Below the pieces are notes generated by a model that did no database searches, had not been told where the DNA came from, and saw nothing but the letters and a program-made list of their open reading frames with translations. Position numbers and translations under genes: made by a program. DNA of 50,334 nt, taken from assembly GCA_001767495.1 (NCBI GenBank), contig MELA01000120.1, positions 1 to 50,334 on the forward strand, in the 5' to 3' direction. This stretch comes from Acidobacteria bacterium RIFCSPLOWO2_12_FULL_65_11 (lineage in GTDB: Bacteria > Acidobacteriota > Vicinamibacteria > Vicinamibacterales > CAVVIG01). How positions within the stretch are numbered: the first letter of the stretch is position 1; every line of letters starts with the position of its first letter. Shown piece after piece: positions 29,546 through 46,030 of this stretch.

Positions 29546-30775
29546 GTGGCCGAAGGACGAACGCGCCTCCTCGATGGGGCGCTGATGATCTGTCTGGGGA
29601 TTGTCGCCGCTCAGCTCATCCCCCTCTCTCTCGCAGCGCGGCAGACGCTGTCGCCCGCAAGCATCGACGTTGACCGCGCGCTGCGCTTCACCGCCGCCGA
29701 CGGTCCACTGGCGCAGCCCCTCCAAGCCCTCTCGCTCGATGCCGACTCCACGGCGTGGGCGCTCGCGCTGGCCGCGGGCTGCATCGGGCTGTTCTGGTGC
29801 GCGCGCCATGCGTTCGCCCGTGGCGGCGTACGCGTGGTTGCACGCGCGGTCGCCTGGATGGGTCTCGCCTTGACCACGCTCGTTATCGTGCAGCGGGCCA
29901 CCGAGCCTACGCTCTTGTACTGGTACTGGCGGCCCCTGACCGCGGGCGCGGCACCGTACGGTCCCTTTGTGAACCGGAACAGTTTCGCCACCTGGCTCGT
30001 GATGGCCATTCCGTTGGTGGTCGGCTACACCATCGCACGGAGTCGGTCTCGTTCGATCGTCGCGACGAGCTTCGCCCAACGCGTCTCGACCCTTGACGCC
30101 ACCGACCTGTGGCTTGCGGCGTCGGCATGCCTGATGACGGGGGGCTTGCTCGGTTCGTTGTCGCGCGCGGGGATCGTTGCAGGTGCGGCTGGTCTGGCGG
30201 CGTTCGTCTGTCTCTCCTCAAGCCGTGTCTCCGGGAGACGGCGTGTCGCAGGCTTCGTCTTCGTTCTGGGGCTCATGGTTGCGACCGCGACGATGTTCGC
30301 CAATCTGGGCGCGCTCGCCACGCGCATGAACCGGGCGCTCGAGCTTGGCGCTGCAGGACGCCGCGCGATTTGGAGCGACACGTGGCGGATGGCCGGAGAC
30401 TTCTGGCTGACCGGTGTCGGCTCGGGAGCCTACGAACGCGGCATGCTGGTGTACCAGCAAGGATCGCGGCAGTATTTCTATAATCACGCCCATAACGAGT
30501 ACCTGCAGATCCTCGCCGAAGGAGGCGCGCTGCTGGCCGTGCCTGCAGCGGTTGCGCTCGTGGCGGGCGTCGTCCTCGCCGCCCGCCGGCTTGGCGCCGA
30601 TCGGTCGCCGCTGTTCTGGCTGCGGGCCGGGGCGGCCTCTGGCATGCTCGCCGTGGCGGTACAGAGCATCTGGGATACGGGATTGAGAATTCCCGCTAAC
30701 GGCGCGCTGTTTGCGGTGATGGCGGCCATCGCCACGTACGAACCAGACACCGGAATCGAAAGGAACGCGACGTGA
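29546..30775 (+). CDS. O-antigen ligase / polysaccharide polymerase-like membrane protein (5' end doubtful)
   Basis: A 409-residue multi-spanning protein with about ten helices and the Wzy_C domain features PYGPFVNRNSFATWL, LGSLSRAGIVAG and FYNHAHNEYLQILAEGG, the periplasmic loop of the O-antigen ligase family. It would join or polymerise glycan repeat units. The start is uncertain: the GTG at 29546 lacks a good ribosome binding site, and the same frame upstream (29411-29545) encodes an obvious membrane helix (YPLVLLIGWVLVAFAGSYGW) without a start codon. The ATG at 29412, overlapping the BY-kinase stop, opens another frame that ends after 11 codons. A one-base indel near 29415-29445 would join them. 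The 3' end overlaps the next gene by 4 nt. Confidence 0.82.
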   Translation: MAEGRTRLLDGALMICLGIVAAQLIPLSLAARQTLSPASIDVDRALRFTAADGPLAQPLQALSLDADSTAWALALAAGCIGLFWCARHAFARGGVRVVARAVAWMGLALTTLVIVQRATEPTLLYWYWRPLTAGAAPYGPFVNRNSFATWLVMAIPLVVGYTIARSRSRSIVATSFAQRVSTLDATDLWLAASACLMTGGLLGSLSRAGIVAGAAGLAAFVCLSSSRVSGRRRVAGFVFVLGLMVATATMFANLGALATRMNRALELGAAGRRAIWSDTWRMAGDFWLTGVGSGAYERGMLVYQQGSRQYFYNHAHNEYLQILAEGGALLAVPAAVALVAGVVLAARRLGADRSPLFWLRAGAASGMLAVAVQSIWDTGLRIPANGALFAVMAAIATYEPDTGIERNAT

Positions 30776-31122
30776 GCCCTGTGACCCTCAACGATCGAGT
30801 CGTCGTACCCGACGGTGTGCTCTCTAAGGAAATCGATGGAGAAACTGTTGTGCTGAACCTCGAGAGCGGCGTCTACTTCGGTCTTGACCCGGTTGCGACT
30901 GATATGTGGCGGGGCCTCCAGATCGGCGCGCCGTTGAACGAAGTGGCCAGCGCGTTGGAGACATCGTATGAGGTCGAACCGGCCGTCCTGCGCGCCGACC
31001 TGCTGCAATTGGTGAACGAGCTCGTTGCCAAGGGCCTGGTCAAGGTCGCCGTGCCTGGCGAAACCACTTTGGCAGGCCACGGACCGTCCGGTGCAAATAG
31101 AGAAACGGAAGGGCGAGCTTGA
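30772..31122 (+). CDS. PqqD-like lasso peptide leader-binding protein (B1 / RRE)
   Basis: A 116-residue PqqD-family protein. The fold signature is clear: VLSKEIDGETVVLNLESGVYFGLDPVATDMW, then a winged-helix part (LNEVASALETSYEVEPAVLRADLLQLVNELVAKGLVKV). Such RiPP recognition elements bind the leader peptide and hand it to the processing enzymes; in split lasso systems this is protein B1. Its GTG start overlaps the stop of the polymerase gene (GTGA), so it is translated with the polysaccharide operon, while the other lasso genes lie on the other strand. Its last 18 residues overlap the convergent nucleotidyltransferase gene by 83 bp. Confidence 0.85.
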   Translation: MSPVTLNDRVVVPDGVLSKEIDGETVVLNLESGVYFGLDPVATDMWRGLQIGAPLNEVASALETSYEVEPAVLRADLLQLVNELVAKGLVKVAVPGETTLAGHGPSGANRETEGRA

Positions 31123-32113
31123 GCCTCGTGCCATAGCGTGCGTACATGAACGCAGAGCTTGGGAACAGATGCTCTCGCAGGAGCTGAAGACGCGCCGGCC
31201 ACGTCGGCGTTGCCGCCAGGTCTGATCTCAGGATGTCGACCTGGCGCAGCTCGCCTCCAAGAAACGCGGCGCTGGGCTCGACGGCATCGCTCACTTCAGC
31301 CAGCGATGCGATCCAGTCGACGTCAATGCCGCCGAAGGCCGCCTGGGCCAGGCGAAGCGTCTTTCCGCAGACGGCGCGGACTCGCCGCGCCGAGGCCAGC
31401 TCGCTGAATGCGGCGCGCTGGCGTGGATCGAAGGCCTTGGCGAGGAGGTGCGCGTCGAACAGCCACAGCAGATGTGGGGTATCGCCGTGGTGCGCGACTC
31501 GATGGACGCAGGCGATAAGCAGCGCATGAACGGACGACGGGCACCAGGCGTTGGCACCAAGCGTCGGCACCGGCATCGCGTCGCGCGCCAGCTCCTCGAA
31601 CGTCAACACGTCGGCAAACGCCCGCACGTTCGACACCCGCCAGTGGAGGTCGAGCGCGTGCAGCAGTCCGTTTCGATCGTGCTTCTGAAAATGACACTGA
31701 CCGGTCGCCAAGTCGCCATCGACTTCCGCCAGGCGGCGGTAGCCGAGCGCGACGAGCCCGCGCGCCACCTCCTCGCGGCTCGACCACGGGATCATCATGT
31801 CCACATCAGCGCGTGGACGCAGCTCCGGCCGCCGATAGCAGGTGTGCGCCAGCGAGGCGCCTTTGAGCAGAATCGGCCGCACGGGGACATCCGCCATCTG
31901 TGCGAGCACCGCTCGAAGCTCGTGTTCGCGGACGGCTTCTACGGCGGCCGCGGCCCGTAGCTCGTCGGTCATCACAGGCAGTCGAAGCCGATCGGCCAGG
32001 AGCAGATGCACGCCGTCTAGGCGAGCGGCGGCCATGACCTCCGCCGGCACGCAACCGGCCGGCGGGGCGTCATCTCGCAGATAGGCACACACACGTCGAC
32101 GGACGTCAGTCAT
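31040..32113 (-). CDS. Nucleotidyltransferase family protein (lasso-cluster tailoring type)
   Basis: A 357-residue protein of the PF14907-like (NTP_transf_5) group. The nucleotidyltransferase core is seen as PILLKGASLAHTCYRRPELR followed by RADVDMMIP, with the metal-binding pair D103/D105. Further conserved pieces are LDLHWRVSN and the histidine-rich LLIACVHRVAHHGDTPHLLWLFD. Members occur regularly beside lasso peptide kinases, and in one described Bacillus system the homologue elaborates the phosphate added by the kinase; that is family knowledge, not shown here. It is the last gene of the lasso operon, 21 bp after the methyltransferase. Confidence 0.85.
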   Translation of the reverse strand: MTDVRRRVCAYLRDDAPPAGCVPAEVMAAARLDGVHLLLADRLRLPVMTDELRAAAAVEAVREHELRAVLAQMADVPVRPILLKGASLAHTCYRRPELRPRADVDMMIPWSSREEVARGLVALGYRRLAEVDGDLATGQCHFQKHDRNGLLHALDLHWRVSNVRAFADVLTFEELARDAMPVPTLGANAWCPSSVHALLIACVHRVAHHGDTPHLLWLFDAHLLAKAFDPRQRAAFSELASARRVRAVCGKTLRLAQAAFGGIDVDWIASLAEVSDAVEPSAAFLGGELRQVDILRSDLAATPTWPARLQLLREHLFPSSAFMYARYGTRLKLALPFLYLHRTVRGLPKWFRQARRP

Positions 32114-32134: not shown

Positions 32135-33295
32135 CTACTCACTATAGCGATCTGAAAGGTCTCCAACTCTGGTGAGGGCGGCATCCCAGTTCTTGAACGA
32201 GGAAGGGAACGCCGCCAAGATCTGTGTCGCAATCTCCCCCGACGGCATCCGCTGATGCATGAGGTCGAGAATGCACCTGTCGATGCGCGCGGCTTCGTTG
32301 AGGCGTGGCACGAACGTATCCGCCCGCTTGCGCAACAGCTCCCGATTGGGTTGCGCCGCCAGCCAAGACGATTGCCGGTATGCGGCTTTCGCGCGCCCAG
32401 AGGCACCGTCCACTACCTGCGTGTCCCATCCCCACAGGTAGTCATCCTCGATGAGGTCGGCACGCAGATGGATCCGAACTTCATCGCCTGGCAAGAGCGC
32501 AATCGGATCGGGCCAGGCGAAGAACCCTTGCCCGTACACCAGCCGCTCGTGGGAGGCCGGCGAATTGGAAAAGCCGATCCCCGGCGCGGTCTCGGCGTCG
32601 AACCACACGCCGAATCCGTGGCCGACAGCGGCATGTTCGATCGTCCAGTTCATCGGACCGCTGACATTTGGCCCCTGGAGGCTGTCGTAATCCAACACGG
32701 CCCAACACTGCGGCTCGACGAGCAGATCGTCGGCATCCAGTCGCTGCCTGGACCACTGATTGGCTGCCCTGACGCGGACAGCCGAGAGATCGAACCCGTA
32801 TTCGGTGGTCCAGGCCTGAATGATGCGCTTATGGGCCGCGGTCGAGGAAGCCAGCGCGGCCCAGATCGTATCGCGCGCCGGCACGATCCAGCCGCCCGGT
32901 TTGAGCAGTCGCGATCGGGCGTCGACGACAGACACGAGGCTCCTGCCAAAAAGCGGCAGCGTGCCACGGATGTCCGCCACGATCCCATCGACGCGCTCGG
33001 GAAGAACGACGTCGGTCGTGACGGCCTGTACGAACTGGATGCGATCGGTGAATCCGTTGGCTGCCGCTACCTCCCTGGCCACCTGAATCACGTCGTCAGG
33101 CTCGACGGCATAGACGCGCGCGGCACCGGCACGACACGCCAGAAGCGCCAGGAAGCCTGGCCCGGTGCCGATGTCGAGCACGACCGACGAAGGGGTGATT
33201 CTCGCTTCGAGTGCGCGGGCGTAGGCTGAAACCCGCGTCGTGTCGGCGATCATGTCGCCGTAGTCGAGCAAGCCGTACACCGAGCTTCCACTCAC
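32135..33295 (-). CDS. SAM-dependent methyltransferase, PRMT-like
   Basis: A 386-residue class I methyltransferase. The GTG at 33295 overlaps the cyclase stop by 4 nt (GTGA) and gives VSGSSVYGLLDYGDMIADTTRVSAYARAL, the usual entry of the PRMT-like fold; the open frame further upstream is cyclase shadow. The SAM motif is VVLDIGTGPGFLALLA (41-47) with E65 in VYAVEPDD, followed by VDGIVADIRGTLPLF. It lacks the double-E loop of true arginine methyltransferases. The C-terminal half (about 190-386) is beta-rich and less conserved. Being coupled to the cyclase, it is a candidate tailoring enzyme for the lasso peptide, an unusual addition to kinase-type clusters. Confidence 0.82.
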   Translation of the reverse strand: MSGSSVYGLLDYGDMIADTTRVSAYARALEARITPSSVVLDIGTGPGFLALLACRAGAARVYAVEPDDVIQVAREVAAANGFTDRIQFVQAVTTDVVLPERVDGIVADIRGTLPLFGRSLVSVVDARSRLLKPGGWIVPARDTIWAALASSTAAHKRIIQAWTTEYGFDLSAVRVRAANQWSRQRLDADDLLVEPQCWAVLDYDSLQGPNVSGPMNWTIEHAAVGHGFGVWFDAETAPGIGFSNSPASHERLVYGQGFFAWPDPIALLPGDEVRIHLRADLIEDDYLWGWDTQVVDGASGRAKAAYRQSSWLAAQPNRELLRKRADTFVPRLNEAARIDRCILDLMHQRMPSGEIATQILAAFPSSFKNWDAALTRVGDLSDRYSE

Positions 33296-35205
33296 GAGGA
33301 GGATGCTCCGAAAAATCGCCTGAGCCACAGCTCCAGGCCTACCACGTCGCCAATCTGCCACGCCGGAAGCGCCGTATCTGCCCGAGCGATGCGCGTCTCG
33401 AAGGTCGTCAACTCTCTGGCCAGGCGGTCGCCGTCGACCAGGCCCGCCTGAACCGCTAAGGAATCTCGCGTCAGCAAGCGCAGGATAGCTGGATACTCCG
33501 ACACAATCGCCCGGTTGCCGGCGCCGGTAAAATCCGCCTTCCACCGGCGCTGGCGTATCGCGTCGGGCAGAATCCCCTGCATGGCGTGGCGCAACAACGC
33601 TTTAGGAACCCCGTCTCGATTGATCATGTCGCCGGGGATCGCCATCAAGAAGGCCACCAGGTCCCTGTCTCGGAACGGATAGGCGACCTCGAGGCCATGC
33701 ATGAGGCCAGTCGCATTGGACCGGTGGGTCTGCACCTGGCAAAATCCCGACGTCGCATTCCGGTAGAGCTGCTCCGCGTGGCTGCTCGCGAACTTCCGAT
33801 CAAGATTGGGCCGACTGAGCGAGCGCTCGATCGCACGCTCCAGGAACTTCGCGGTGTACCACGCCGGAAGTCTGCGCCTGAATCGCCGGCGCGAGGTTCG
33901 CTTCTTGACGAATCGAAACAGCCACCGAGGCGGTAGTGCCCGCACCAGCCTGCTCCGAAGCTGACGCCCGAAGAGGCCGGGCTCGACATCCGTCATCCAG
34001 GCGTCACACTCACGTAAGTGGCGCCGGACCATCAACCATCGTCCCCGACGAAACAGATCGACCAGATATGCCTGATCGGACAGGATCTGGTCTCCGAAGA
34101 ATCCGTCCAGAACGACGGTACATCCTGACTGCCGCGCGGTCGCCAACAGCACCGACTGAACATCCCACGTCAGGCCGGGCATTTCCATGTGCCAGATAGT
34201 CCGCTCCGCGTCGGTTAACAACCGGAGCGCCGAAACAGCCTGGCGAACGATCGGCAGGCCCGACGCCGTCTCGACCTGGTCCAGATACGCGACCTCGTCA
34301 GCCGCGGCGTTGCCGGGAAATGTCAGGGCGAAGCCGCGTAGCTCAGCCGGTGCGGCACCGCTCGTGATGAGCGCTCTGGCTTGACAGAAGATCGATGAGG
34401 AGTCGAGGCCGCCGCTGACCGACACGGCGACCGGACGATCGCTGCGCAGCCGGCGCCGGACCGACTCTGCAAACAGCGTGCGGAAGCATTGAGCGTAGTC
34501 CTCAAAGGATCGATAGCGAATCTCCCGCGCCGAATCGAAGTCCCAGTGTTGCCGGAGGACTCGCCCATCGGTTGTGACGATGAGGACGTGTCCGGGCGGC
34601 ACGCTGTACACGCCCTGAAAGCACGTCCGCGTGCCGTCGCTGTAGCCGTCGAGGACCAGGTCTGCGAGCGCGTCTTCGTCGGGGCGGGACCTGACCGCGC
34701 GGTGCGCAAGAAGGCTCTTGATTTCTGACGCGAACAACAACGTGCCCGGAAGCGGGCAATAGTACAGCGCGCGGGCGCCCATTCGGTCGCGAGCAAGCAG
34801 GAGGCGTCGGCGTGTCGAATCACACAACGCGAGAGCAAAGTCACCGTTCAGGCGAGCGACAAACGCTTCGCCAAATTGCGAGTAAGCGGCAAGCGCGAGC
34901 GCCGCATCGGAGCACACGGCCTCCGGCCAGCCAACGTTGGAAGGGCATGCATCGAGGACTTCCTGGCGGTTATCGAGGCGGCCGTCGAACGCGACGGCCG
35001 TGCCGGAGGGCGAGGTGAGGGGCTGACGCTCTGTCAGCGACTCGGGTGTGACCCGAGAATGCTGATGACCGATGCCGGCCGTCGAGCCGATCCAATAATC
35101 CTCACCATCGAGTGCGTGATGAGCGGAGGCCGCAGCGAGCCCTTTCAGCTCGGACGGCTCAACCGTGCGACCGTCCAGATTGAAGACACCGACAATACCG
35201 CTCAT
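33292..35205 (-). CDS. Lasso peptide cyclase (asparagine-synthetase-like, protein C)
   Basis: A 637-residue asparagine-synthetase B homologue, as expected for the ATP-dependent enzyme that adenylates the ring Asp/Glu and closes the isopeptide bond to Gly1. Residue 2 is Ser instead of the catalytic Cys of glutaminases (MSGIVGVFNLDG), so it cannot use glutamine, as in lasso cyclases. The PPi-loop SGGLDSS is at 264-270, and the C-terminal synthetase domain contains YPFRDRDLVAFLMAIPGDM and KALLRHAMQGILP, with the lysine in RQRRWKADFTGAG. It starts 46 bp after the precursor gene and is coupled to the methyltransferase. Confidence 0.92.
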   Translation of the reverse strand: MSGIVGVFNLDGRTVEPSELKGLAAASAHHALDGEDYWIGSTAGIGHQHSRVTPESLTERQPLTSPSGTAVAFDGRLDNRQEVLDACPSNVGWPEAVCSDAALALAAYSQFGEAFVARLNGDFALALCDSTRRRLLLARDRMGARALYYCPLPGTLLFASEIKSLLAHRAVRSRPDEDALADLVLDGYSDGTRTCFQGVYSVPPGHVLIVTTDGRVLRQHWDFDSAREIRYRSFEDYAQCFRTLFAESVRRRLRSDRPVAVSVSGGLDSSSIFCQARALITSGAAPAELRGFALTFPGNAAADEVAYLDQVETASGLPIVRQAVSALRLLTDAERTIWHMEMPGLTWDVQSVLLATARQSGCTVVLDGFFGDQILSDQAYLVDLFRRGRWLMVRRHLRECDAWMTDVEPGLFGRQLRSRLVRALPPRWLFRFVKKRTSRRRFRRRLPAWYTAKFLERAIERSLSRPNLDRKFASSHAEQLYRNATSGFCQVQTHRSNATGLMHGLEVAYPFRDRDLVAFLMAIPGDMINRDGVPKALLRHAMQGILPDAIRQRRWKADFTGAGNRAIVSEYPAILRLLTRDSLAVQAGLVDGDRLARELTTFETRIARADTALPAWQIGDVVGLELWLRRFFGASSS

Positions 35206-35251: not shown

Positions 35252-35407
35252 TCAGATCCTTGACATGTTTGTTGCGCCGTCACCCATGACACCGCCGGTT
35301 CCCTGAACGATGTCTTTCACGTGGCCGTAGGAGACCAAGCGGGGCTTGGCATAGGGTTTTCTGGCGCCGGGTGCCCTTCGATCGACCGACTTGTCTGTTG
35401 CACTCAT
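35252..35407 (-). CDS. Lasso peptide precursor (A), 51 residues
   Basis: The ATG at 35407 is preceded by GGAGGATTCG, an excellent ribosome binding site. The 35-residue leader ends with KPYAKPRLVSYGHVKDIVQ, which has the YxxPxLxxxG recognition motif of lasso leaders. The predicted core is GTGGVMGDGATNMSRI: Gly1 can be joined to Asp8, giving an 8-residue ring and an 8-residue tail. The usual Thr at leader position -2 is replaced by Val. The gene lies between the kinase and cyclase genes. It is short and embedded in a longer frame, hence easy to miss. The core borders are inferred, not observed. Confidence 0.85.
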   Translation of the reverse strand: MSATDKSVDRRAPGARKPYAKPRLVSYGHVKDIVQGTGGVMGDGATNMSRI

Positions 35408-35423: not shown

Positions 35424-36416
35424 TCACGCAGTTCTCCTGCAAGGCTCCTTCTCGACAACGGTCTGCCGGACATGCTCGACGATGGCGTTGCGCAACGCCG
35501 GAAGGTGCTGCAGCCCTCCTGGATACCGCAACTCGAAACCGATCGCCTCGGAGGCCACTTGCGTCGCAAACGCGAACTGCCTTGCGAGACGTTCTCTGTG
35601 AAGAATGGTTGTGGTGAAGCTGCTCTTGAGTAGTTCTCTGACCATCGCCACGCGCGATATCGAGCGTATTTCGAACGAGCGAGTACGGTTCCGTTCGTCG
35701 GGTTCCGGCAGGACGAACAGGCGCCGCAGCGGCAGGCTGTCCGGCTGCCGAGCGGCCGCCGTGAGCGGAAACGACCGTTTGGTCGCCGTTGGCGTCAGTG
35801 GGGTGCCGCGCGCGGGACTGTCCCAGAACGTGCCGGCGCTATCCGGCATGAGCTTGACGCGCCCCGACCCAGGATGCGCAACGAGATTCCCACTGCGTCG
35901 CTCAAGTATCAACATGTCGTCGGTGACGACCTGGTGGCCTTCCTGAAGAAAGGCCGCCAGCAGAGTCGATTTTCCGAATCCACAGTCGCCGAGAAACGCC
36001 ACCGCCCAGTCATCCACGCGCACGGCGGCGGCGTGCAGCGGCTCGATCCCCTGCTGGACGAGTGCCACGGCAAGCGCCTGTCCGAACAGGAAGTTCTGCA
36101 GCACCGCGCGGGGGCAGTCGTTGAGCGGCCGATACACGACGCACGAGCCATCCGCGGCGACACGAAATTCGTACAAATGTTCCCAACGCAGGTAGGTGGT
36201 GCCGTCTGCCGGACGTGGACGGACCACCCATTCATCGGCGGACGGCTGCTCGCACGCAGAAGGCTCGAAGTCTTCGGCGGTACCCTCCACGAACTCCACG
36301 TCGGCTAGTAGCTGCTGTCCGTCGTGCGCCCTTGGGAACGCAAACCGATGGTCGCTGGTTACTCGAACGCCGTAGATCGAGTAGTGATACCGCTCGGGAC
36401 ACTGGCGTGGCTTCAT
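35424..36416 (-). CDS. HPr-kinase-like lasso peptide kinase
   Basis: A 330-residue protein; ATG 36416 overlaps the B2 stop (ATGA). Residues 125-170 hold the HPr-kinase core: EPLHAAAVRVDDWAVAFLGD, P-loop GDCGFGKS (143-150, K149), and VVTDDMLIL with D166/D167. The N-terminal HPrK regulatory domain is absent and replaced by about 110 residues typical of the paeninodin-type kinases, which phosphorylate the C-terminal serine of their precursor. In the adjacent precursor the only core serine is the third residue from the end (Ser14), so the site would differ, or another residue is used. It ends 16 bp before the precursor gene. Confidence 0.88.
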   Translation of the reverse strand: MKPRQCPERYHYSIYGVRVTSDHRFAFPRAHDGQQLLADVEFVEGTAEDFEPSACEQPSADEWVVRPRPADGTTYLRWEHLYEFRVAADGSCVVYRPLNDCPRAVLQNFLFGQALAVALVQQGIEPLHAAAVRVDDWAVAFLGDCGFGKSTLLAAFLQEGHQVVTDDMLILERRSGNLVAHPGSGRVKLMPDSAGTFWDSPARGTPLTPTATKRSFPLTAAARQPDSLPLRRLFVLPEPDERNRTRSFEIRSISRVAMVRELLKSSFTTTILHRERLARQFAFATQVASEAIGFELRYPGGLQHLPALRNAIVEHVRQTVVEKEPCRRTA

Positions 36417-36847
36417 GCGAAAAGGCTGTCCCATACCGTCAGTGGCGCGTACTGGTCGGCCGTCGAGCCGCCTATCACAATGCGGTCCCGATCGGCGAGC
36501 CAGGCGTGTGACTGAAGACGACCGCCCGGCTCGTATCTGACGCCGACAGTCAGCCGCAACGGTCGTTCGGGCGATCCCAACGCCAGGTCCGCCACGATCG
36601 CCCTCACGAGACAAGTACTCACGCCCGCGAGCCGGCGGCCGCTGGCTTCGATGGCCCAAATCACCCGCGCCTCAGGCCCACGCAGGATGAAATGCGCGAG
36701 CAACCGCAGCCGCGCTGCCCCTCTACGCAAGGTCGGCAGCGACATGGTCCGGAGGCCGAACGCTGTCAGGACTTGGACAAGGGACGCGGCAATCAAGAGT
36801 CTCCAGTCCGAGGCGGTCAGCGACAGCCAGCGTGTGAATCGGTTCAT
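36413..36847 (-). CDS. Lasso peptide leader peptidase (B2, transglutaminase-like)
   Basis: A 144-residue protein of the lasso B2 family (transglutaminase-like cysteine protease that removes the leader). The catalytic cysteine is C79 in GVSTCLVRAIVADLAL, the histidine H114 in SHAWLADRDRIVIGG, and the aspartate D119 or D121. The N-terminus (WRLLIAASLVQVLTAFGL) is the usual amphipathic or hydrophobic helix. It is the first gene of the minus-strand operon and overlaps the kinase gene by 4 nt. B1 is encoded separately, so this is a split-B system. Confidence 0.9.
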   Translation of the reverse strand: MNRFTRWLSLTASDWRLLIAASLVQVLTAFGLRTMSLPTLRRGAARLRLLAHFILRGPEARVIWAIEASGRRLAGVSTCLVRAIVADLALGSPERPLRLTVGVRYEPGGRLQSHAWLADRDRIVIGGSTADQYAPLTVWDSLFA

Positions 36848-37048: not shown

Positions 37049-37474
37049 ATGAATCGCCCCAACACGCCAGCCAACTCCGGGCTGCCGACCCAGCGAAAGC
37101 CGTATTCAAAACCGCGCCTGATCTGTTACGGCCACGTGAAGGACATCATTCAAGGTGGCGGAGGCATGATGAATGACGGTGGAGGTGTCATGTCGCGGGG
37201 GTGCTGGATCGCCGAAGCGATCTACGGCGAATCCGACCCACGGACCACGCTGCTTCGCGCCTGGTTGACTCGGGTGTACGACGAGCGGTGCCGGTGGTGG
37301 TTTCTCGTCAGCGTCTACCGGGTCTGTGGGCGCAGGGTGGCCGGCTTGATCCGCAGCGGGTGCGTCCCTCGGGGGCTGTTCGTTCCGCTGTTCGACTATC
37401 TCCTGATCCAGGCGAACGACGACACCGCTCGCCTGCTCAGACGAGGCTCCTACCTGCCTGGCCGTGTTTCCTGA
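37049..37474 (+). CDS. Second lasso-type precursor fused to a CFI-box-like C-terminal domain
   Basis: A 141-residue protein from ATG 37049. Residues 17-35 (KPYSKPRLICYGHVKDIIQ) match 15 of 19 positions of the lasso precursor leader, and the ring region GGGGMMNDGGGVMSRG starts at residue 36, with D43 at ring position 8, exactly as in the other precursor. Instead of stopping after ...MSR it runs on: GCWIAEAIYGESDP, a hydrophobic helical stretch (WFLVSVYRVCGRRVAGLI) and GLFVPLFDYLL. This tail resembles the CFI-box domain (CFIATAAYG followed by an LR.FRD helix). It is divergent from the lasso operon. No Shine-Dalgarno is visible; a hairpin abuts the start. The 3' end overlaps the convergent pilX-like gene by 25 bp. 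Confidence 0.75.
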   Translation: MNRPNTPANSGLPTQRKPYSKPRLICYGHVKDIIQGGGGMMNDGGGVMSRGCWIAEAIYGESDPRTTLLRAWLTRVYDERCRWWFLVSVYRVCGRRVAGLIRSGCVPRGLFVPLFDYLLIQANDDTARLLRRGSYLPGRVS

Positions 37475-43516: not shown

Positions 43517-44104
43517 TCAGCGCCCCTCCGCCGGTGAGGGCCGGCCCCAGCGGGTATCGAGGATCGCCCAGAGGTACTGGTCCACGTAGTGGCCGTCTCG
43601 CCAAAAAGCTTCGGTCAGCGTCCCTTCGCGAATGGCGCCGAGCTTGCGTAATGCCGCGTTCCCCCGATCGTTGTCGACGGCGGCGCGCGCTTCAACCCGG
43701 TGAACTTTCACCACGCGGAAAGCGAAATCGAGCACGAGCCGCACGCTGTCGTCAAACACGCCGGTACCCCAGAGCCGAGGCGCGATGACGAAGCCGAGTT
43801 CGCCTCGAAGAAATCCCGGTTGAAGCTGGCGCAGCTCGAACACTCCGCACGCGTGTTGCTCGCCGCGCGGGACCACGCCGTAGCAGATGTACTTGCCAGT
43901 GGCGCGTTCGCCCCGGGCCCATCCGATGAAATGTTCAAACGCCAGCGCGCTCGCGGGTGGCGCCCACATGAAGCGCGTCACCTCGGGCGTGGTCAGTTCC
44001 ACGAACAGCGTGTCCGCGTCGGACTCTCGAAGCTCGCGCAGCGTCAGGCGTTCGCCAATCAGGTCCGGGAGTCCGGTGCGCCAATCAATCGACGGGCTCG
44101 CCAT
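43517..44104 (-). CDS. GNAT family N-acetyltransferase (RimJ/RimL-like)
   Basis: A 195-residue acetyltransferase from ATG 44104 (MASPSIDWRTGLPDLIGERLTLREL). The acetyl-CoA site is ELGFVIAPRLWGTGVFDDSVRLVL and the closing part is NDRGNAALRKLGAIREGTL. The start overlaps the end of the subtilase gene by 20 bp, so expression may be coupled. The frame can be extended upstream, but there it only mirrors the VWG repeats of the subtilase. It is a paralogue of the GNAT at 11935-12546. Substrate unknown. Confidence 0.87.
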   Translation of the reverse strand: MASPSIDWRTGLPDLIGERLTLRELRESDADTLFVELTTPEVTRFMWAPPASALAFEHFIGWARGERATGKYICYGVVPRGEQHACGVFELRQLQPGFLRGELGFVIAPRLWGTGVFDDSVRLVLDFAFRVVKVHRVEARAAVDNDRGNAALRKLGAIREGTLTEAFWRDGHYVDQYLWAILDTRWGRPSPAEGR

Positions 44105-45710
44105 TACCCCAGACGATGGTGTCATCCCACTCGAAGTTGCCCCAGACGATGGTGTCGTCGCCCAAGTCGAAGTTGCCCCACACGATCGTGTCGCTCCAGT
44201 CGATGTTGCCCCATACGATCGTGTCAAGATACTCGTCGGCGCCCCAGACGAAGGTCTGCGACCATTTCCAGCTCTCGCCACCAATCGTCGTCGCTGGCGC
44301 GAGCAGGTCGGCAGGCGACCAGTTCCCCAGCGGCACAGGAAGAGCGACAACCTGCGCCAGCGCAACAGCTCCTGACGCGTTCAAAGCGCCGCGACCCTGC
44401 GTGAGCGGGTCGACGCCGTCCAGCAGCAACGCGGTGTACTGCAGGATCGCCTTGATGGCAGCGGGCGGAAGACCCGTGCCATGAGTCGCGCGGCTCGCTT
44501 CAATCATCAGCGCCACCACACCGCTCGTCACCGCCGCCGACATGCTCGTGCCGCTCAATCGGAAGAACTGCGCCACATTCCCCTTCGCGGTAACCTGCCG
44601 GTCGGGGAACTGCGTAAACAGCGCTCCCGCCGGCGCCGCATCCGACACCAGGTTCTGGCCGGGTGCCACGATGTCCGGCTTGACGAGCCCGTCGTACCAG
44701 CTCGGCCCGCGCGAACTGTACGAGGGAATCGCATCGTCGCCCCGCTTCGTCGTGTTCTTCGTGTCGACGGCGCCGACAGTGATCGCGGAGGGGGCGTTAC
44801 CCGGGCTGAGAATGCCAGCATAGCCAGGCTGTCCTGTGACAACACTGCGTCCGACGTTCCCCGCAGAGACGACGACCACGATGCCCGCACCGACGGCGGC
44901 CTCGACCGCTTGCACCAGCGGATCGCTGCGACCGGGCTCCAGAATTGGGTGGCCGAGCGATAAGTTGATGACGTCGACTCCGAGCGTCTGCCGGTTGGCC
45001 ACCGCAAACTCGATGGCCTCGATGACCGTGCTCGTCAGCCCCCATCCCTGCGCATCGAGCACCTTCAGACTGATGATGCGGGCCCCGGGCGCGATGCCCT
45101 GGTAGGGCGCGCCCGCCGAGTTCTGCGACAGCGCACCCCTGCCCGCAATCAGTCCGCTCACATGGGTCCCGTGCCCATGGTCGTCGTTGGCGTACGGACC
45201 GAATCCGCCGGTGAAATCGTAGATGCTGACGCCGGTGAAGTCTCCGTTCCGGTCGATACCCGAATCGATCACCGCGACGCCAACGCCCCTGCCGGTCAGT
45301 CCGTTCATCGGCAAGCCGAGCGTCGAAAGCAGCGTGTTCTGGACGCTCTCTGCATCGGACGCCTTGTCGGCATTGTGCAGGACGGGGGCGTCGAGCGAGA
45401 TGCTTTCAACATCGGCGTCGTTCTCAAGGACTGAGATCTCGTCGCTTGACACCGAGGCCGTGACGGCCTCGACAATCGCGTGCTTCTTCAAGATGGATCC
45501 GCCGCGCTGCTGGAGCCGGACGGCCAACGAGCCCGAAGCGCCAGGTCGAGTCCGCACGATCACTCTGATCGGTCCGCTCGCGCCGCGACGAAGGGCGGCG
45601 TCCAGCTTGGAATGGTCGGGGGGTTGCGCCGCCCGGCCAGCCGCCTGGGCACCGAGGAAGACAGCAACCGCCGCGATGGCACACGAGACGAACTTCTTAT
45701 TCAACGACAT
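44085..45710 (-). CDS. Secreted subtilisin-like serine protease with C-terminal VWG repeats
   Basis: A 541-residue S8 protease from ATG 45710 (GGAG stands 11 nt upstream; a GTG at 45722 is an alternative). The signal peptide is MSLNKKFVSCAIAAVAVFLGAQAAG. An I9-like propeptide (about 30-110) is followed by the catalytic domain with D149 (VAVIDSGID), H180 (HGHGTHVSG) and S389 (LSGTSMSAA). The end is a run of VWG repeats (four DTIVWGN plus one TFVWG), found in related subtilases of acidobacteria; their role, perhaps in anchoring or secretion, is unknown. A CTATAGTCCGTGG motif lies about 65 bp upstream. Confidence 0.93.
   Translation of the reverse strand: MSLNKKFVSCAIAAVAVFLGAQAAGRAAQPPDHSKLDAALRRGASGPIRVIVRTRPGASGSLAVRLQQRGGSILKKHAIVEAVTASVSSDEISVLENDADVESISLDAPVLHNADKASDAESVQNTLLSTLGLPMNGLTGRGVGVAVIDSGIDRNGDFTGVSIYDFTGGFGPYANDDHGHGTHVSGLIAGRGALSQNSAGAPYQGIAPGARIISLKVLDAQGWGLTSTVIEAIEFAVANRQTLGVDVINLSLGHPILEPGRSDPLVQAVEAAVGAGIVVVVSAGNVGRSVVTGQPGYAGILSPGNAPSAITVGAVDTKNTTKRGDDAIPSYSSRGPSWYDGLVKPDIVAPGQNLVSDAAPAGALFTQFPDRQVTAKGNVAQFFRLSGTSMSAAVTSGVVALMIEASRATHGTGLPPAAIKAILQYTALLLDGVDPLTQGRGALNASGAVALAQVVALPVPLGNWSPADLLAPATTIGGESWKWSQTFVWGADEYLDTIVWGNIDWSDTIVWGNFDLGDDTIVWGNFEWDDTIVWGNGEPVD
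44094..44255 (-). repeat. VWG tandem repeats in the subtilase gene
   Basis: Five units of 11-12 codons, each centred on (D)TIVWGN, with variable acidic or aromatic spacers (IDWS, FDLGD, FEWD). The DNA repeats are imperfect (recurring GACGATGGTGTC and CCCCA on the plus strand), which could allow unit gain and loss. Confidence 0.85.
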
Positions 45711-46030
45711 AACGTTTCGCACTCCATACGTAGGCGTGTGGAGCGGTAATCGTACGGCACGGCCGCCCTTTAACCACGGACTATAGTCAACAGACCCGTT
45801 GTCGCCCTGAGGACAGACTTCTGCTCATGGCTTCTGGATTCCCCGACGGCACACGCCGGCCCTCCTCGCTTCCGTGGCTCTATCTGCAGGGAATGCTAAC
45901 TGGGGCGCCGAAGTGGTTTCGGCTGCGAGGGTGGGCTATCCGAGAGCGTGGCAGGCCGGAGCACCGGCGGGCAGCCCGATGAGCGGGCGGTGTTGGGCGC
46001 AGGTCCGGCGCATCAAGCGCAGCAGAGAAT
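45711..46030. other. Intergenic region upstream of the subtilase
   Basis: About 320 bp without a convincing gene; frames across it are shadows. It holds CTATAGTCCGTGG on the minus strand (45774-45786), identical in 11 positions (ATAGTCCGTGG) to the middle block of the two regulatory regions at 37 and 43 kb and starting like a -10 box (TATAGT). It should contain the subtilase promoter and the end of the flavoprotein transcript comes from the other side. Confidence 0.45.

Follow-up and report, generated by a model that had tools for sequence, protein, structure and literature searches.

A 141-residue protein encoded at positions 37049 to 37474 of an acidobacterial contig is probably a genuine two-module lasso precursor, in which a lasso head would be carried by a membrane-directing C-terminal tail. 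Full-length homologues occur in two other genera of the same family, and these three related soil Acidobacteria suggest that there is a natural lasso peptide attached to a protein.

The tailed precursor and its lasso cluster

The window, i.e., the whole 50,334-nucleotide stretch of DNA analyzed, contains a complete kinase-type lasso cluster on the minus strand upstream of the tailed gene, with B1 on the plus strand. The tailed gene is divergent from B2. Features are as follows.

30772..31122, plus strand: B1, PqqD-like leader-binding protein (NF033536, E 5.8e-12; PF05402)
31040..32113, minus strand: nucleotidyltransferase (NTP_transf_5) of phospho-lasso clusters (PF14907, E 1.8e-28)
32135..33544, minus strand: PRMT/PrmA-type methyltransferase ORF, start probably near 33253 (PF06325, PF22528)
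33292..35205, minus strand: lasso cyclase (C), Asn synthetase type, 637 aa (NF033535, E 1.3e-103; PF00733)
35252..35407, minus strand: 51-aa short lasso precursor, located between kinase and cyclase (its TGA stop corresponds to the codon for Cys52 in the tailed form)
35424..36416, minus strand: HPr-kinase-related lasso kinase, start MKPRQ, ORF open to 36659 (TIGR04352, E 2.6e-8)
36413..36847, minus strand: B2 leader peptidase (NF033537 lasso_biosyn_B2, E 5.9e-15; PF13471)
37049..37474, plus strand: tailed lasso precursor, 141 aa, consisting of leader, core, and CFI-box-like tail (ORF translation; architecture shared by homologues P0002 and P0003)
37049..37153, plus strand: leader, residues 1 to 35, with Y19 (-17), P22 (-14), L24 (-12), G28 (-8), and I34 (-2), counted with Gly36 as 1 (motif per PMC10368454; conserved in the alignment of tailed proteins)
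37154..37201, plus strand: putative core GGGGMMNDGGGVMSRG, residues 36 to 51, candidate eight-residue ring Gly36-Asp43 (Gly and Asp invariant, the rest hypervariable)
37202..37471, plus strand: CFI-box-like helical tail, residues 52 to 141, starting CWIAEAIYG (CFI_box_CTERM; AlphaFold2; phage relatives)

The kinase is 52% and 46% identical to the kinases of the two tailed relatives, and the methyltransferase has homologues in many lasso clusters of acidobacteria. The window also encodes, some 7 kb away from the cluster, what by eye is a subtilisin-like protease (44085-45722, minus strand) that ends in DDTIVWGN(F/G) repeats; none was seen in the loci of the tailed relatives.

The B1 recognition motif YxxPxL is present at positions -17, -14, and -12 in the tailed protein of the window (P0001), in P0002 and P0003, and in the short precursor. 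At position -2, the window tailed protein has Ile34 and the others have Val; the classical Thr is absent. Work on Bradymonas has examined a kinase-type lasso cluster whose precursor has Ile(-2), Gly1, and Asp8 and in which leaders are processed; the same authors also found Ile/Val(-2), validated in that bsf system, in Acidobacteriaceae (PMC10368454). The first-pass annotation of the region had called the protein a lasso-type precursor, and the kinase-type leader motif agrees with this, as does a match of the leader to the lasso_cyano profile (E 0.0094 in the window protein and E 0.002 in P0003). Scores against the NCBIfam leader models NF033521 and NF033528 fall under the cutoffs of 19 and 33 bits, both for the tailed proteins (14.9 and 19.1 bits at best) and for the short precursor (17.4 and 17.3 bits).

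Gly1 and Asp8, which would delimit a ring of eight, or their equivalents occur in all four precursors, three tailed and one short. The resemblances first noted between the two window precursors held throughout: residues 17 to 35 match the leader of the short precursor at 15 of 19 positions, Gly36 and Asp43 have identical residue numbers in both, and both share MSR at 48 to 50, with the short form stopping one residue later. All three tailed proteins lack the C-terminal core usual in short precursors, with approximately 85 to 100 residues following the core, and a short linker rich in Gly, Ser/Thr, or Lys precedes the Cys. Elsewhere, genome G410 encodes tandem near-identical lasso precursors (locus L074, near 7899 and 8178) with cores AVDMMGMADGGGGMMNKT and AVDMNGMADGGGGGMNKT; their MADGGGGMMN stretch is similar to the MNDGGG core of the window, and the cluster is distant.

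The two tailed homologues are 51% (G020, QHWB01000036) and 46% (G021, JADGOC010000122) identical to the window protein, with E-values of 3e-35 and 3e-28. Both are encoded on GenBank metagenome-assembled genome (MAG) contigs of Acidobacteria. In both relatives, the leader-ring-tail gene lies between kinase and cyclase, which is the canonical precursor slot, and its product is the only precursor found there. The G020 kinase stop overlaps the GTG start of the precursor, and the TGA that ends the tail overlaps the GTG start of the cyclase (GTGA), indicating that the frame encoding the tail is an integral part of the operon. An artefact, be it a frameshift, an assembly error, or a chance fusion of a lasso pseudogene with a CFI-box gene, is therefore very improbable. 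The MAG origin of the relatives' data is all that speaks for it, and against it stand this overlap and the recurrence of the same fused frame, at about 50% identity, in three independent assemblies from three genera. No frameshift or stop separates core from tail in G020 or G021, and the same fusion in two other genera refutes the frameshift and assembly versions outright.

B1, B2, C, and kinase are all present in the window and in G020; in G021, B2, C, and kinase lie at the tailed locus and B1 on another contig. The latter genome carries a second lasso cluster on contig C82 (L091), which encodes a cyclase of its own and a short precursor (...KKARLCL). The sole B1 identified with confidence in G021 lies at this second cluster and so may serve both. 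The three cyclases of the tailed clusters form one clade with 100/100 support, and the neighbor of this clade is a short-precursor cluster of the same family.

Tailed precursors were sought with P0001 in 162 genomes of the order, with P0003 in 193 genomes of the class, and with a profile of the tailed alignment in 396 genomes of the phylum, a less sensitive search in which 10 candidates were scored per genome. These searches returned three tailed precursors in total. Approximately 20 other acidobacterial leader matches were short precursors of the ordinary kind, almost all encoded next to a lasso cyclase, and the other CFI matches were non-lasso proteins. A first search of genome contigs with P0001 alone gave no match; a second returned the G020 and G021 contigs again, along with a phage-like locus from a planctomycete. 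The search of the plasmid collection returned one unrelated CFI-type protein and no tailed precursor.

The CFI-box-like tail and its phage relatives

The domain following the lasso core had been likened to a CFI box, and profile searches bear this out, weakly in the window protein (CFI_box_CTERM, NF041770, E 0.13) and across the full domain in P0003 (E 2.2e-6, positions 1 to 67 of 69). All scores are below the curated cutoff of 40 bits (27.4 for P0003, 14.2 for P0002, and 12.0 for P0001), and, as judged from sequence, the tail is a related domain that would constitute a divergent subfamily of CFI-box-CTERM. When the lasso tails are aligned with phage domains and CFI-box proteins, the residues C, A, A, R, and Y are invariant, and the bacterial CFIATA proteins are 22 to 31% identical to the tail. 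The nearest sequence relatives are phage domains starting CWIAEA[LI][YF]G, with 26 to 45% identity in the alignment.

AlphaFold2, run with 13 sequences, predicts residues 53 to 131 to be helical, with pLDDT values of 76 to 93 for the block of residues 51 to 130, and the leader and core to be disordered. PDB sequence, Foldseek, and VIA searches yielded no significant match of the tail to a known fold; Foldseek with the tail returned two phage models at high probability but with E-values above 0.001. The tail helices are amphipathic and basic. The best 19-residue mean hydropathy is 1.27, and no tail segment reaches a classical transmembrane score.

In phages, the CWIAEA[LI][YF]G domain is located at the C termini of proteins of 260 to 415 residues that are encoded in virion regions and lack a lasso leader, and its Cys comes after a Gly/Ala-rich stretch. 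The domain recurs in this C-terminal position at loci L057 to L071 (IMG/VR), L028, and L072, and no Pfam or PHROGs family matched it. The gene right after that of the CWIAEA protein in L071 encodes an internal virion protein that carries a transglycosylase/endolysin domain (phrog_342 and phrog_2013), a tail-fiber-type protein is encoded just upstream in L068, and a distant match lies near putative tail fiber genes of the cultured phage HMO-2011 (phage1322_25). We take the gene order at these loci to be reminiscent of T7-like phage ejection proteins. Judging from this phage gene context, by analogy, and from the amphipathic basic helices, directing the lasso to a membrane is the most likely role of the tail.

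The modules of the precursor differ in how they have diverged among the three tailed genes. The leader is the most constrained (dN 0.14 to 0.37), and the core is hypervariable except at Gly1 and Asp8 (dN 0.64 to 1.42). The tail has a dN of 0.43 to 0.51 and a dS of 1.2 to 1.4, giving dN/dS ratios of 0.35 to 0.41 by NG86 that are rough because dS is near saturation. Conservation of leader and tail around a variable core is, on these substitution patterns, the signature expected when a RiPP precursor carries a functional domain at its C terminus.

Five short lasso precursors from acidobacteria of this order end in Cys-Leu (KKKACL, FRKTCL, KQMCL, TGMCL, and ARLCL; loci L097, L098, L009 at ~2270-2330, L075 at ~7990, and L091 at ~445). 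Their Cys is just past the core, where tailed forms carry Cys52, and the C-terminal Cys possibly has a function common to both.

The probably truncated paralogue and the fate of the tail

The short precursor in the window has the sequence MSATDKSVDRRAPGARKPYAKPRLVSYGHVKDIVQGTGGVMGDGATNMSRI, followed by the stop codon, with a putative 16-residue core, GTGGVMGDGATNMSRI. Its TGA aligns with the TGC that encodes Cys52 in the tailed form. From this codon on, 11 of 13 bases are identical (TGATGGAGCGCCG versus TGCTGGATCGCCG), as opposed to 4 of the next 30, and the 13-mer is matched this well at only 6 of 100,642 window positions, both genes included. The joint pattern occurs at these two places only, with 0.01 expected, although this is a post hoc figure for a short stretch with a pattern drawn from both sequences. 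The short gene is most likely a tailed precursor that was truncated by a nonsense mutation at the first tail residue, and the DNA similarity past its stop, together with synteny, indicates the direction, i.e., that the short form derives from a tailed one. This reverses the first-pass view of the tail as an addition to the normal precursor of the cluster, since the tailed form holds the canonical slot in both relatives. Selenocysteine at the short-form TGA was considered and rejected: after a few codons the downstream frame no longer resembles the tail, and the cyclase start lies 46 bases away.

The position of this stop also marks the functional end of the core. The truncated form has a core length of 16, the same as in GGGGMMNDGGGVMSRG and GSHGGMSDGTPGNTKA, and the paralogue cut at the core/tail junction amounts to a natural experiment on where the core ends. 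One precursor copy in the window would have lost its tail at Cys52 through this mutation and would now encode an ordinary lasso core, and the lasso segment proper would comprise the 16 to 19 residues before Cys52.

In the two-module scheme, B1 would bind the leader, B2 would cut before Gly36, and the cyclase would join Gly36 to Asp43 around the chain; because closure proceeds around the chain, a free C terminus is unnecessary. Decoration of the core may fall to the kinase, the nucleotidyltransferase, and the methyltransferase, and the tail would act as a C-terminal membrane-directing module that bears the lasso head. A C-terminal protein had initially been thought to be at odds with threading, but lassos fused C-terminally to green fluorescent protein (GFP) or a leucine zipper are matured in the laboratory, as described for astexin-1 and pandonodin (reviewed in PMC8498205 and PMC13352647), so that lasso topology does not forbid a tail.

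Whether the tail is kept divides the remaining readings. Retention, yielding a lasso-capped protein, is slightly favored because no dedicated protease gene common to the three loci was found. In its full form, the tail is never removed, and the product would be a phage-ejection-type membrane domain with a mechanically interlocked head at its N terminus, either shown on the cell's own envelope or delivered to the membranes of other cells; we offer this form tentatively. Alternatively, though this is rather unlikely, the tail is a removable follower that aids localization or stability of the precursor until a protease encoded outside the cluster cleaves the chain just ahead of Cys52, which would release a free lasso of 16 to 19 residues. 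The short paralogue fits such removal, in that it ends exactly at the junction with the same core length, and a tail-less core is evidently useful to the organism. So do the conservation of the tail while the core varies and the short linker, with its Gly-, Ser/Thr-, or Lys-rich composition, before the Cys. Removal is opposed by the lack of an extra protease gene shared among the three tailed loci and by the CFI and CWIAEA domains elsewhere, which form plain C-terminal protein ends without sign of cleavage.

The lack of a detected ABC transporter in the three tailed loci raised the idea that the tail substitutes for an exporter. This was rejected: among the short-precursor loci, a motif scan detected an ABC ATPase in G073 and G074 alone, and the lack of such a gene is therefore not peculiar to the tailed loci.

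It is also conceivable, but improbable, that no ring forms and that the leader and core-like stretch serve as a docking signal to B1 or the kinase, making the protein a modified accessory, decoy, or immunity factor. The cores are Gly-rich and of low complexity, some copies lack obvious bulky plug residues, and the tailed gene of the window is displaced and divergently oriented, with the short precursor in the normal slot, all of which would suit a docking role. Such a role is difficult to reconcile with the tailed protein being the sole precursor found between kinase and cyclase in G020 and G021, or with the invariance of Gly1 and Asp8 amid otherwise variable core residues. The decoy or immunity partner raised at first pass gained no specific support. 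The companion suggestion, to look for the leader-ring-tail architecture beside lasso cyclases in related genomes, was borne out in G020 and G021, and the two loci contradict the possibility that the tail never co-occurs with lasso leaders.

Comparison with known lasso systems

The cluster resembles those of paeninodin, the Sphingobium SyanK type, and Bradymonas bsf in its split B1/B2, Asn-synthetase-like C, HPr-type kinase, and nucleotidyltransferase. Precursors of the HPr-kinase type share Y-17, P-14, and L-12 and a Gly1-Asp8 ring with those described here, and the Ile/Val at -2 has its counterpart in bsf and in Acidobacteriaceae (PMC10368454). BsfK targets Ser3, which is absent from the tailed cores. 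Known precursors of this type end with the core, whereas the tailed precursors add a predicted folded domain of ~90 residues.

The first-pass annotation knew of no described lasso precursor with such a domain, and the literature searched, which lay mostly outside subscription journals, likewise described no natural lasso precursor that ends in a folded domain and gave no match for the CFI box. CFI-box-CTERM proteins (NF041770) have the motif CFIATA, in contrast to CWIAEA[LI] in the tailed proteins, whose N-terminal part is a lasso precursor. The phage proteins share the Cys-start motif of the tails, but there the domain ends virion-type proteins of 260 to 415 residues that have no lasso leader.

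If the two-module reading is correct, the tailed precursors would provide a first functional handle on a CFI-box/CWIAEA domain that is widespread in bacteria and phages. They would also take lasso biology beyond free peptides to lassos that form the heads of proteins and supply tailored enzymes for making lasso-capped proteins. The enzymes are of known kind; the architecture is new, potentially that of a natural lasso-capped protein. As far as the literature search showed, described lasso precursors end at the core and lasso-protein fusions are otherwise engineered only. The engineered fusions of Zong et al. (2016), as cited in PMC8498205, place a C-terminal protein after the lasso core, as here. 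Those constructs are man-made, whereas the tailed precursors are natural, occur in three genera, and carry a specific domain.
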